Source: Tessaracoccus aquimaris
Lineage (GTDB): Bacteria > Actinomycetota > Actinomycetes > Propionibacteriales > Propionibacteriaceae
Reading direction: 5' to 3'
Assembly (NCBI RefSeq): GCF_001997345.1
Contig: NZ_CP019606.1
Span: 2,790,001-2,854,000, forward strand
Length of the DNA stretch: 64,000 nt
The notes under the pieces were generated by a model, which saw only the letters and a program-made list of their open reading frames with translations, was not told the DNA's origin and did no database searches. Shown piece after piece: positions 1,464 through 5,071 of this stretch. The position numbers were made by a program, and so were the translations under genes. The stretch's first letter is position 1; the number at the start of each line of letters is the position of its first letter.

Positions 1464-1504
1464 GATGAGAGTCTTCTCATCCCTTGGGCAGTGCTGTCCT
1501 CATG
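1464..1504 (+). promoter_or_regulatory. Candidate response-regulator operator upstream of the Asp-tail protein
   Basis: Perfect inverted repeat GATGAGA-N4-TCTCATC at 1464-1481, followed by CCTCATG at 1498-1504. From TCTCA to CTCATG is 24 nt. The same two elements with the same 24-nt spacing occur before the gene at 4571, and a related palindrome lies between that gene and the kinase. The inference is a shared binding site for the response regulator encoded between them. Confidence 0.6.
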
Positions 1505-1540
1505 CTGGTCGCGTTGAGTGGGCGACGAGGAGGAACACGG

Positions 1541-1903
1541 ATGCAGAAGAAGTGGGTCATCGCCGTCGGGCTGCTGGCGCTCATCGGCCTGGTCGCGGGC
1601 TGGGTGTTCGCGATGATGGTGCGCACCGAGACCGAGCCTCCGCGGCAGTCGGCCATCGTCGTGACAAAGGCCCCAGAGCCGACCCCGACGGTCGAGTCGC
1701 CGACGCCGCCCTCCGGCACTGCGTCGCCTCCGGCCACGCCCGCTCCATCTCCGAGCCCGTCGCCGAGCGCCTCACCGACGGCGCCCGAGACCGTGACCCC
1801 TGCCAAGCCCCAGTCGGTCGACGACGACGATGACCTGGATGACGACGACGACCCCGATGACGATGACACGGACGATGACGATCCGGACGATGACGACGAC
1901 TGA
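1541..1903 (+). CDS. Small membrane-anchored protein with Asp-rich C-terminal tail
   Basis: A 120-residue protein of no named family. An N-terminal segment (about residues 3-27, MQKKW then hydrophobic) can act as a signal anchor. It is followed by a Pro/Thr/Ser/Ala-rich disordered stretch (about 40-88) and a tail of roughly 32 residues that is almost all aspartate. The tail could bind divalent cations (inference). The start at 1541 is favoured by AGGAGG about 10 nt upstream; an in-frame GTG at 1484 lies inside the palindromic control region. The gene sits beside a two-component system and shares its putative operator with the Ser-Pro repeat protein at 4571, so both are probable targets. Confidence 0.7.
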   Translation: MQKKWVIAVGLLALIGLVAGWVFAMMVRTETEPPRQSAIVVTKAPEPTPTVESPTPPSGTASPPATPAPSPSPSPSASPTAPETVTPAKPQSVDDDDDLDDDDDPDDDDTDDDDPDDDDD

Positions 1904-1955
1904 GCGCCGCGTCGCCTGATCATCGGCCACCCCGGACCCCGACTGGCTCGGCGCC

Positions 1956-2240
1956 GTTCGTCGAGCTTTGTCGAGACGTCCGACACCACCCGGCAACGGG
2001 ACCCTTCGACAAGCTCAGGGAACGGCCGGCAGGCTCAGGAAGCAACCCGCTCGTCGAGCCTGTCGAGACGTCCGACACCACCCGGCAACCGGACCCTTCG
2101 ACAACCTCAGGGAACGGCCGGCAGGCTCAGGAAGCAACCCGCTCGTCGAGCCTGTCGAGACGTCCGACACCACCCGGCAACCGGACCCTTCGACAAGCTC
2201 AGGGAACGGTGGGCAGGCTCAGGGAACGGTCGGCGAGATT
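1956..2240 (+). repeat. 92-bp tandem repeat array, three copies
   Basis: The marker GTCGAGACGTCCGACACC begins at 1970, 2062 and 2154, a constant 92-bp period. Each unit also carries CCCTTCGACAAGCTCAGGGA or a one-base variant, which can fold against the neighbouring GAGCCTGTCGAG. The first copy is preceded by GTTCGTCGAGC, the signature seen at 20041 and, reversed, around 14050-14180. The array fills the 351-bp gap between convergent genes; no coding sequence is apparent. Confidence 0.85.
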
Positions 2241-2254
2241 CCGATGCGCGGCGC

Positions 2255-2920
2255 TCACACCAGCCGGTAGCCCATCCCGCGGACCGTCTCGAAGCGGTCC
2301 CTCCCCAGCTTTCCGCGCAGGTAGCGCACGTACACGTCCACCACGTTCGATCCGGGGTCGAAGTCGAAGCCCCACACGTTGCTGAGTAACTGCTCCCGGC
2401 TCAACACCTGGCCCGCATTGCGCAGGAAGGTCTCGGCCAGCGCGAACTCGCGGGCGGACAGGTCGACCCACTTCCCCTCGACGCCCGCCTTCCTGGTGCG
2501 GTAGTCGAGCGTCAACCCGTTGTGGCTGAGCTGTGTCGAGTCTGAGGCAGCGTCATGGTTGTCGCTGCGCAGCCGCAGCCGGATCCTGGCCAGCAGTTCC
2601 TCGAACGAGAACGGCTTGGGCATGTAGTCGTCCGCGCCGCCCTCGAGCCCCGCGACCCGGTCCTCGACTGACGAGCGCGCCGTCAGCATGATCACCGGGA
2701 CACCGACGCCCTGGCCGCGCAGCCGCTCCAGCACCTCGAAGCCGTCGATGTCGGGGAGGCCAACGTCGAGGAGGACGAGGTCGAAGTTGCCGTGCACCGC
2801 GAGCGAGACGGCCTCGAGTCCCGAGGCGCACTGGTGCGAGGTGAAGCCAGCCGCCTTCAGCCCCTTGGCGATGAAGGAGGCGATCCTGGCCTCGTCCTCC
2901 ACGATCAGTACTGTGCTCAC
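2255..2920 (-). CDS. OmpR/PhoB-family response regulator
   Basis: A 221-residue two-domain cytoplasmic transcription factor. The receiver domain (1-117) shows the acidic pair E8/D9, phosphoacceptor D52 in LLDVGLP, T80 and K102 in MPKPF. The C-terminal winged helix (about 130-221) ends with VDVYVRYLRGKLG and GMGYRLV, typical of OmpR-class DNA binding. The GTG start overlaps the kinase stop by 4 bp (GTGA), so the kinase and regulator are co-translated, kinase first. Probable targets are the two genes carrying the TGAGA/TCTCA sites on either side; that link is inference from position and shared motifs. Confidence 0.93.
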   Translation of the reverse strand: MSTVLIVEDEARIASFIAKGLKAAGFTSHQCASGLEAVSLAVHGNFDLVLLDVGLPDIDGFEVLERLRGQGVGVPVIMLTARSSVEDRVAGLEGGADDYMPKPFSFEELLARIRLRLRSDNHDAASDSTQLSHNGLTLDYRTRKAGVEGKWVDLSAREFALAETFLRNAGQVLSREQLLSNVWGFDFDPGSNVVDVYVRYLRGKLGRDRFETVRGMGYRLV

Positions 2921-4362: not shown

Positions 4363-4440
4363 GGCACCATCCTGCCCAACGCGCACGCATCCATGCCCGA
4401 CATCGTCTCGGACGAAGGGTCCCAGCCGATGAGGTGGCAC

Positions 4441-4454
4441 TGAGAGATCTCTCA
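4441..4454 (+). promoter_or_regulatory. Perfect 14-bp palindrome in the kinase promoter region
   Basis: TGAGAGATCTCTCA is a perfect palindrome lying 79 bp upstream of the kinase start and on the other side of the divergent gene at 4571. It matches the TGAGA/TCTCA arms of the site at 1464. Probable autoregulatory operator (inference). Confidence 0.55.
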
Positions 4455-4485
4455 TCTGCGCTCCCCGGGGCGGAGTGGACAAGCA

Positions 4486-4524
4486 TGAGGATCCTCTCAC
4501 CGTGGCACGCGTGCCGCCCTCATG
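4486..4524 (+). promoter_or_regulatory. Candidate response-regulator operator upstream of the Ser-Pro repeat protein
   Basis: TGAGGATCCTCTCA (4486-4499) plus CCTCATG (4518-4524). TCTCA begins 24 nt before CTCATG, exactly the spacing at 1475-1504. The intervening 19 nt differ, so the conserved blocks and spacing are likely functional and not merely a recent duplication. Confidence 0.55.
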
Positions 4525-4570
4525 TGGGGGCTGTGTGATGGAGACACAACCAAGCACAAGGAGAACTGAC

Positions 4571-5071
4571 ATGGCATGGAAGAAGTCCACCCCCTGGGTC
4601 CTGGCCGGAGCCTTCGGCGTCGCCGCCGCCAGCGGAGGCGCGCTCGCGTCGTTCGCCGACCCCGCGACCCCTTCGCCCACCGCCCCGGCGACCAGCACGA
4701 CCCGCCCGGTGCTGCCGCAGTCGGTGCTGTCGGCCGTCTCGGCCAACTCCCCAGCATCTGCCTCCCCCGCCCCGACGGCAGACCCGACGTCGTCCGCCAG
4801 CAAGGTCGCGGCGGCCAGCGCCGTCTCCGCCGCGACGGCCGCCTCCCCCGCGAGCGCGGCGAGTGCGGTGTCGGCGAGCAGCCCCGTCTCGGCCAAGACC
4901 GCCGCGAGCCCCGTCAGCCCGATCTCGCCCGCAAGCGCGGCATCCCCCGCGTCCCCGGTCAGCCCGATTTCGCCTGCCAGCCCGGCGTCCCCGGTCAGCC
5001 CGGCATCCCCGGTCAGCCCGGCCTCGCCCGCCAGCCCGGCATCCCCGGTGAGCCCGGCGTCGGCCGACTGA
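4571..5071 (+). CDS. Secreted low-complexity protein with Ser-Pro-Xaa repeats
   Basis: A 166-residue protein with an N-terminal signal-like segment (MAWKKSTPW, then hydrophobic to about residue 28). The rest is built from Ala, Ser, Pro, Val and Thr. From about residue 112 to the end it is mostly consecutive SPA/SPV/SPI triplets, encoded by near-perfect 9-bp units. It is expected to be an extended, possibly wall-spanning or shed peptide; no enzymatic motif exists. AAGGAGAA sits before the ATG. It is divergent from the kinase gene and carries the same operator arrangement as the gene at 1541. A product that titrates or signals cell-envelope stress is a guess only. Confidence 0.7.

Follow-up and report, generated by a model that had tools for sequence, protein, structure and literature searches.

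Predicted control of exported low-complexity peptides by an OmpR-type two-component gene pair of Tessaracoccus aquimaris

The regulator AgrR of the AgrRS system of Cupriavidus metallidurans is described, in the available part of the source, as recognizing a 16-bp 6-4-6 inverted repeat (ATKACANNNNTGTMAT), as being aided in activation by an in-phase direct half-site and as being autoregulated (PMC7380067). Characterised actinobacterial two-component systems include MprAB, CutRS and PolSR, two of which are tied to the envelope or to secretion. The available portions of the respective reports give the sites of MprA, CutR and PolR as TKTTAAGAAM (PMC12113857), TAWATAAA (PMC12802291) and GTTCACn5GTTCAC (PMC6754071), respectively. 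The accessible text on sco5282/sco5283 states no motif (PMC6629963), and that on CusR/HprR gives no site sequence (PMC8249747). A kinase-regulator gene pair with a predicted inverted-repeat operator was analysed in a 64,000-nucleotide stretch of the genome of Tessaracoccus aquimaris (hereafter the window; bases 2,790,001-2,854,000 of the single contig of 3,934,699 bases). The wiring predicted by comparison of genomes is most likely that of an autoregulated OmpR-type two-component system with a very small regulon, and the recurrence of the pair, the operator and this kind of peptide points to a conserved surface-control system in many related actinobacteria.

The kinase and regulator genes are both encoded on the minus strand, with an overlap at 2917-2920, and two small plus-strand peptide genes flank the pair. 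A coordinate check confirmed this layout, which a preliminary description of the window had reported. The Pfam domains of the kinase and the regulator score above their cut-offs and place the two proteins in the OmpR-family two-component class. The four genes are as follows.

1541-1903, plus strand: type-1 peptide gene, 120 amino acids (translation)
2255-2920, minus strand: OmpR-family response regulator, 221 amino acids (Pfam Response_reg and Trans_reg_C)
2917-4362, minus strand: sensor histidine kinase, 481 amino acids (Pfam HAMP, HisKA and HATPase_c)
4571-5071, plus strand: type-2 peptide gene, 166 amino acids (translation)

The full operator pairs the 6-4-6 inverted repeat ATGAGANNNNTCTCAT with a direct CTCAT half-site lying 22-23 nucleotides (nt) downstream; the TCTCA-N19-CTCATG motif noticed earlier is part of this longer element. 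The sites and associated elements in the window are listed below.

1465-1480, plus strand: operator of the Asp-tail peptide gene, ATGAGA-GTCT-TCTCAT (sequence; alignment with 13 further sites on the response-regulator side)
1499-1503, plus strand: promoter-proximal direct half-site CTCAT, 23 nt beyond the CTCAT of the palindrome
1514-1519, plus strand: candidate -10 element TTGAGT (site alignment)
4429-4433, minus strand: direct half-site CTCAT towards the kinase gene, spacing 11 (locus survey)
4440-4455, minus strand: kinase-regulator promoter palindrome, ATGAGA-GATC-TCTCAG read towards the kinase; predicted autoregulation site
4485-4500, plus strand: operator of the Ser-Pro peptide gene, ATGAGG-ATCC-TCTCAC (alignment)
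4519-4523, plus strand: promoter-proximal direct half-site CTCAT, spacing 23 (alignment)
4534-4539, plus strand: candidate -10 element TGTGAT, alike in most sites on the histidine-kinase side (alignment)

The repeat at 1465-1480 (ATGAGAGTCTTCTCAT, with the core TGAGAGTCTTCTCA at 1466-1479) is the sole exact ATGAGANNNNTCTCAT in the genome. The Ser-Pro operator (ATGAGGATCCTCTCAC, 4485-4500) has two mismatches to the consensus, and its ATGAGG...CTCTCAC form recurs in two related loci, L033 and L034 (L and G numbers denote loci and genomes, respectively). The TCTCA/CTCATG pairs reported at both peptide genes are present at 1475-1504 and 4495-4524, but the 24 nt said to separate their members is the start-to-start distance, and 19 nt lie between them. 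Of the two palindromes reported next to these pairs, that at 1464-1481 corresponds to the repeat at 1465-1480, and that at 4486-4499 is imperfect. The perfect palindrome on the kinase side (TGAGAGATCTCTCA) is indeed found at 4441-4454.

A genome-wide search, which the preliminary description had proposed, found the exact TCTCA-N19-CTCATG twice in 3.93 Mb, above background (reversed control 0) and both times at this locus. TGAGA-N4-TCTCA occurs at three places in the genome (control 0). Two of these are at the locus, before peptide 1 and in the kinase promoter, and the third is at contig position 3,254,087, before a DUF4956 gene, after which comes a VTC-domain gene (Pfam). The same three sites are returned by ATGAGANNNNTCTCAT with at most one mismatch; with at most two mismatches, 29 sites are found (control 5), among them the Ser-Pro operator. 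Within the 64-kb window alone, the one-mismatch motif has two matches, weak evidence in that 15 of 100 shuffles reached this number, and the two matches of TGAGA-N0-6-TCTCA were reached by 5 of 100. These window-only counts are near chance. The weight is carried by the genome-wide and comparative counts, on which a chance origin of the motif was rejected.

For the comparison, kinase matches at an expectation value (E) of 1e-30 or better were obtained in 57 of 60 relatives, some of them being distant paralogues, and the flanking DNA of 40 genus and order loci was compared. A scan of named genomes contributed the 80 loci listed, out of at least 115 candidates that encode a relative; 7 of the 80 repeat genus loci. 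Together with L193 and the window, the set comprised 122 loci, or 115 after removal of the repeats; a few of the 115 are distant (identity below 45%), some on contigs labelled cyanobacterial. Operator-like sites were defined by a pattern permitting one A/G or T/C change in one half, and about 4.8 kb around each pair was considered. At the 115 loci, 114 such sites were found near the pair in 558,391 bp (reversed control 1), and 12 outside this region in 856,227 bp (control 0). At least one site is present in 70 of the 115 loci; with the repeats included, the 122 loci hold 119 sites (control 1), distributed over 74 loci. In 31 of the 115 loci the kinase has a site at most 200 nt upstream, and in L033, L038 and L040 this site doubles as that of a divergent peptide. 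That the palindromes belong to another regulator, of which the pair is merely a neighbour, is very improbable in view of this clustering at the pair across several families and close to the kinase start.

Alignment of 14 palindromes from the regulator side and 12 from the kinase side, picked for having one, gave the consensus ATGAG(A/G)NNNNTCTCA(T/C) or close to it. A CTCAT-like half-site follows 22 or 23 nt on in 13 of 14 and 12 of 12 cases, respectively (25 of 26 aligned), the spacing being mostly 22 nt on the regulator side and 23 nt on the kinase side. The regulator-side site of L033 is the one without a clear CTCAT half-site.

Of the 39 genus genomes, 22 contain the exact ATGAGANNNNTCTCAT, with 29 occurrences in all (reversed control 1). 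By script, 17 of the 29 sites have an exported low-complexity peptide starting 15-140 nt downstream, as against 283 of 20,000 random positions in the same loci. A hand count gave 21, the script having missed the peptides of L034 and L038, one cut by a contig end in L039 and one in L070 whose frame is broken. In that locus (genome G008), frame changes interrupt the genes of the kinase, the transporter and the Ser-Pro peptide, perhaps through sequencing errors, and the completeness of this assembly is 60. Among the 36 genus genomes covered by both the kinase-match and the exact-site scans, an exact site occurs in 20 of the 32 with a closer kinase match and in none of the four without (G001, G014, G022 and G025). 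In 22 named genomes searched whole, 20 exact sites were found in 13 genomes (control 0). Of 17 sites inspected there, at least 8 precede such peptides (L205, L206, L208, L209, L211, L215, L216 and L218), including a Ser-Pro peptide of Microcella alkalica (L211) and an Asp-His peptide of Planctomonas (L215). The sites of L204 and L217 flank a Kineosphaera DUF4956 gene and an Asp-tail gene, that of L213 is the kinase's own, and the others have either no assignment or a doubtful one.

The type-1 peptide of the window contains an N-terminal membrane anchor, a SAIVV motif, a Pro/Thr/Ser-rich spacer and an Asp tail, which measures 27 residues (23 of them Asp) and not the roughly 32 first given. The type-2 peptide contains a signal or anchor, an Ala/Ser-rich stretch and Ser-Pro-x repeats, and ends in SPASAD; its Ser-Pro-Xaa ending, also noticed earlier, belongs to 21 SP-x triplets in the 166 residues. 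Neither peptide has a Pfam family, in agreement with the initial failure to recognise one, and protein-database searches with the two returned only 2 and 3 proteins, none functionally named. In general, type-1 peptides carry one N-terminal hydrophobic stretch, a P-A-I-V-V-like motif mostly 9-16 residues on and an acidic tail, and type-2 peptides start like MxxKxxTxWIAAGAxG and have terminal repeats that vary by lineage.

Filtering the surroundings of the pair for exported low-complexity peptides retained 101, and 62 of these are preceded by an operator-like site. At least one peptide is present in 72 of the 115 loci, at least two in 28, and at least one behind an operator in 50. Many related kinase pairs have Asp-tail or Ser-Pro neighbours with the same operator, but not always, which was a point that the preliminary description had proposed to check. 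Operator-preceded peptides occur in Propionibacteriaceae, Microbacteriaceae (Cryobacterium and Microcella) and Dermatophilaceae (Kineosphaera). In several close relatives, namely L034, L035, L037, L038 and L040 (and L044, on a partial contig), the pair is flanked by two exported peptides that both have Asp-rich tails. The order-level loci L061, L062, L063, L067 and L069 carry an Asp-tail gene beside the kinase and, beyond the regulator, an Asn/Thr/Asp/Arg-rich peptide (e.g., NTAPTKNTAP...), each with an operator near. These counts and the related loci support the idea, put forward from the window alone, of a dedicated regulon that would have low-complexity exported outputs.

Several observations weigh against this reading. 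No peptide passes the filter in 43 of the 115 loci, and no site was found in 45 under the pattern used. The loci without a site include all six from Actinomyces/Buchananella (L116-L119, L124 and L126), of which three (L117, L119 and L126) nevertheless have an acidic peptide that passes the filter. L041 and L043 retain the pair but lack both site and peptide, and an exact site is absent from 12 of the 32 genus genomes in which the kinase match is closer. Eight of the 29 genus sites are not before a peptide. Two of these, L196 and L197, have no fitting gene start; of the others, L191 lies near a gene for an exported RTX calcium-repeat protein, L192 near one for a PepSY lipoprotein with a LuxR-type regulator alongside, L195 near one for an exported protein weakly resembling bactofilins, L198 near a DUF4956-VTC gene pair, and L200 and L071 near genes for glycosyltransferase-28-like proteins (Pfam run on L200). 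The DUF4956 genes have a site in only 2 of the 25 genus genomes with this family. The DNA-binding helix of the regulator is equally conserved in loci with and without a site and thus does not discriminate site-bearing loci. Finally, part of the data counted had also served to form the operator pattern and the peptide filter.

The tails of the peptides seem to have been exchanged while the operator and the export signal remained, as the following observations indicate. The N-terminus of the window's type-2 peptide is 61% identical over the first 36 amino acids to that of an L034 peptide whose tail is Asp-rich. In a kinase tree of 28 loci with hand-labelled tails, the window and L033, both with Ser-Pro tails, lie with strong support inside an Asp-tail group; at least three changes on this tree are needed for the Ser-Pro label, possibly a single gain with two losses. 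In the distant genome G012, the Ser-Pro tail ends in SPASAD, as does that of the window. An origin of the Ser-Pro tail as a frame-shifted Asp tail was rejected, since the three forward frames over the last 60 residues hold only 1, 0 and 5 acidic residues. A CotH kinase as the phosphorylating partner of the Ser-Pro tail was likewise rejected, there being no CotH match in the genome.

The tails (Asp, Ser-Pro, Ser-Asp-His and Asn-Thr) appear interchangeable under one operator, as would be expected if bulk properties matter. This favours an explanation in which the peptides are extended, possibly glycosylated envelope spacers of a surface matrix or cell-wall module and the pair reports the state of the envelope. 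The glycosyltransferase-28-like genes beside operators in G006 and G032 (L200 and L071) and the weakly bactofilin-like L195 also fit it. The explanation is nevertheless unlikely as stated: none of the 101 peptides has an LPxTG sorting motif, the two window peptides lack any Pfam family, and the extra targets each occur in few genomes.

In the favoured wiring, the kinase would phosphorylate the regulator, and the phosphorylated regulator would bind the 6-4-6 repeat ATGAGANNNNTCTCAT and its close variants. Before the peptide genes, the regulator would also bind the in-phase CTCAT half-site near the -35 region, and its binding presumably activates transcription. The first output would be a peptide anchored in the membrane, with a poly-Asp tail and a short P-A-I-V-V-like motif directly outside the membrane. 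The second would be an exported peptide whose tail depends on the lineage (Asp runs, Ser-Pro, Ser-Asp-His or Asn-Thr repeats). A third operator, before the kinase gene, would provide autoregulation. Outside the membrane the peptides may build up an extended layer, polyanionic for the most part, which retains cations or protects the envelope, and the anchored Asp-tail peptide may feed back on the kinase.

Such feedback could be the main function of the Asp-tail peptide. It would then be chiefly a regulatory subunit of the kinase, its P-A-I-V-V-like strand touching the sensor domain and holding the kinase off (or on), its Asp tail tuning this contact via cations, and transcription by the regulator closing the loop. 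The motif is kept after the anchor in otherwise low-complexity peptides. It was found in 34 of 50 acidic-tail peptides (mean of 500 shuffles 7.5, largest 16) and also in 21 of 51 other peptides (shuffle mean 8.0, largest 16), with an expression chosen after the sequences had been inspected. An acidic peptide also stays with the pair in some of the loci where no operator was found (L055, L057, L059, L117, L119 and L126).

The extracytoplasmic domain of the kinase is PDC/Cache-like by fold matches, at about residues 38-172. Whole-kinase fold searches were swamped by the catalytic domain, and the sensor domain was then modelled alone (predicted local distance difference test, pLDDT, 94.7). YycH is a membrane-anchored protein. 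The top-scoring fold match of the sensor domain (VIA-align) is WalK, which has a partner protein (WalK-YycH model, entry 9a5d). In addition, DbfQ, a small periplasmic protein encoded next to dbfRS, binds the sensor domain of its kinase according to the available part of the source (PMC12714742), and so offers a precedent for control of a kinase by a small extracytoplasmic protein encoded next to it. All this makes a role mainly as kinase subunit a tentative possibility, somewhat on the unlikely side. A fuller conjecture, decidedly doubtful as a whole, takes the disordered polyanion as the sensing element. The Asp-tail peptide would dock on the Cache-like domain via the P-A-I-V-V strand and its tail would read envelope cations or charge. 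The regulator would answer with more of this peptide and with an exchangeable low-complexity coat peptide, and tails would drift or swap since only bulk properties are selected.

The best NCBIfam models of the regulator and the kinase are heavy-metal models (cztR_silR_copR and cztS_silS_copS, respectively), and the geometry of the operator is that of the CopR/AgrR class, with ATKACANNNNTGTMAT and in-phase half-sites in the part of the AgrR source available (PMC7380067). The window operator is one base off ATKACANNNNTGTMAT per half-site and is the sole match in the window with at most two mismatches, although 0.84 are expected by chance and this is no proof. These points suggest a metal or cation response, in which the kinase senses an extracytoplasmic cation and Asp/His-rich peptides, with polyphosphate enzymes where recruited, bind it. 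Some targets resemble proteins that bind cations, with Asp runs, Asp-His runs (L167 and L179), RTX calcium repeats (L191) or VTC (L190). However, the heavy-metal cut-offs are missed by both proteins (202.5 of 279.2 and 154.5 of 292.55 bits), no conserved His, Cys or Met was seen in the sensor domain, and the type-2 tail of the window is Ser-Pro and not acidic. No efflux or metal-uptake gene follows the genome's three sites with at most one mismatch or the Ser-Pro site, the targets being peptides, the kinase and DUF4956-VTC. A metal response is accordingly rated improbable, to the same degree as the surface matrix.

The regulon of T. aquimaris may be wider than was first said: the two peptide genes stand, and the kinase-promoter palindrome and the DUF4956-VTC operon site are added. 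In the latter (L190, 3088-4600; contig position 3,254,087 onwards), the palindrome before DUF4956-VTC has a CTCAT half-site at 11 nt, and the VTC-domain gene encodes a polyphosphate polymerase-like protein. Members of the DUF4956 family in G013 and Kineosphaera (L161) likewise have a site. Polyphosphate as the core output was rejected, the operator being found at DUF4956 in 2 of the 25 genus genomes with the family, plus Kineosphaera L161.

Other genes adjoin operators in few genomes each. In G012, the operator of L191 precedes the RTX calcium-repeat gene (3167-3925). Glycosyltransferase-28-like genes (VLYSHDxxGLGHxRRN...) adjoin operators in L200 (2993), L071 (3481) and L129, with Pfam run on L200 only, and lie one gene away in L203 (1501), four genomes in all. 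In two Cryobacterium genomes (L207 1501 and L218 1501), a gene with a KRAVVRV... stretch lies beside the operator, and we take it to be phosphotransferase-like. The bactofilin likeness of L195 (E 0.0087) is under the Pfam cut-off, and a similar-looking exported protein in L138 has no Pfam match. Two further features of the window were recorded. The 20-mer CCCTTCGACAAGCTCAGGGA, present at 2002-2021 and 2186-2205, is a dispersed clustered repeat with 27 copies in the genome (13 forward and 14 reverse; reversed control 0). Beyond the Kup gene, positions 7666-13170 encode a 1,834-residue biotin carboxylase/carboxyltransferase fusion (named by eye), which is closer to the pair in several relatives (e.g., L033, L035-L037 and L041-L043).

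If the predicted control is correct, short, alignment-poor proteins of no known family can be assigned a likely regulator, together with an operator and a role open to testing. The loci also form a natural series in which the tail varies while operator and export signal stay, useful for the roles of poly-Asp and Ser-Pro on the Gram-positive surface.

Identity with the MprA, CutR or PolR systems was rejected, as none of their sites is TGAGA-N4-TCTCA. The window contains no TKTTAAGAAM with one mismatch allowed (0.27 expected) and no TAWATAAA, and the sensor domain of CutRS has two conserved Cys whereas that of the window has none. WalKR, with YycH/YycI, differs in its partners, is 13% identical, and its NCBIfam WalK cut-off is missed (153.8 of 725 bits). 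DbfQRS of Vibrio cholerae also has a small extracytoplasmic protein encoded beside the pair, in the part of the source available (PMC12714742). DbfQ is described there as periplasmic and was shown to bind the kinase, whereas the peptides here are low-complexity and their contact with the kinase is a proposal based on a conserved short motif. The CopR/AgrR type (AgrRS and CopR of Pseudomonas syringae) shares the OmpR-family regulator and, in the case of AgrR, the repeat geometry, the extra half-site and the autoregulation, the last predicted here. The predicted operator fits the AgrR box in its 6-4-6 repeat and in-phase half-site, and one base differs per half-site, ATKACA there and ATGAGA here. 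CopR/AgrR regulators target efflux genes, whereas the predicted targets here are exported low-complexity peptides, and both proteins remain below the NCBIfam cut-offs of that family. Because the geometry matches but the cut-offs are missed, the pair would work like a CopR/AgrR-type switch and, by score and targets, is not placed in that family. No description of the module (operator, pair and exported low-complexity peptides) was found in searches of the open-licence literature. The parts, an OmpR-type pair and an inverted-repeat operator, are ordinary; it is their combination, with such peptides as the main targets across several actinobacterial families, that the searches did not turn up.

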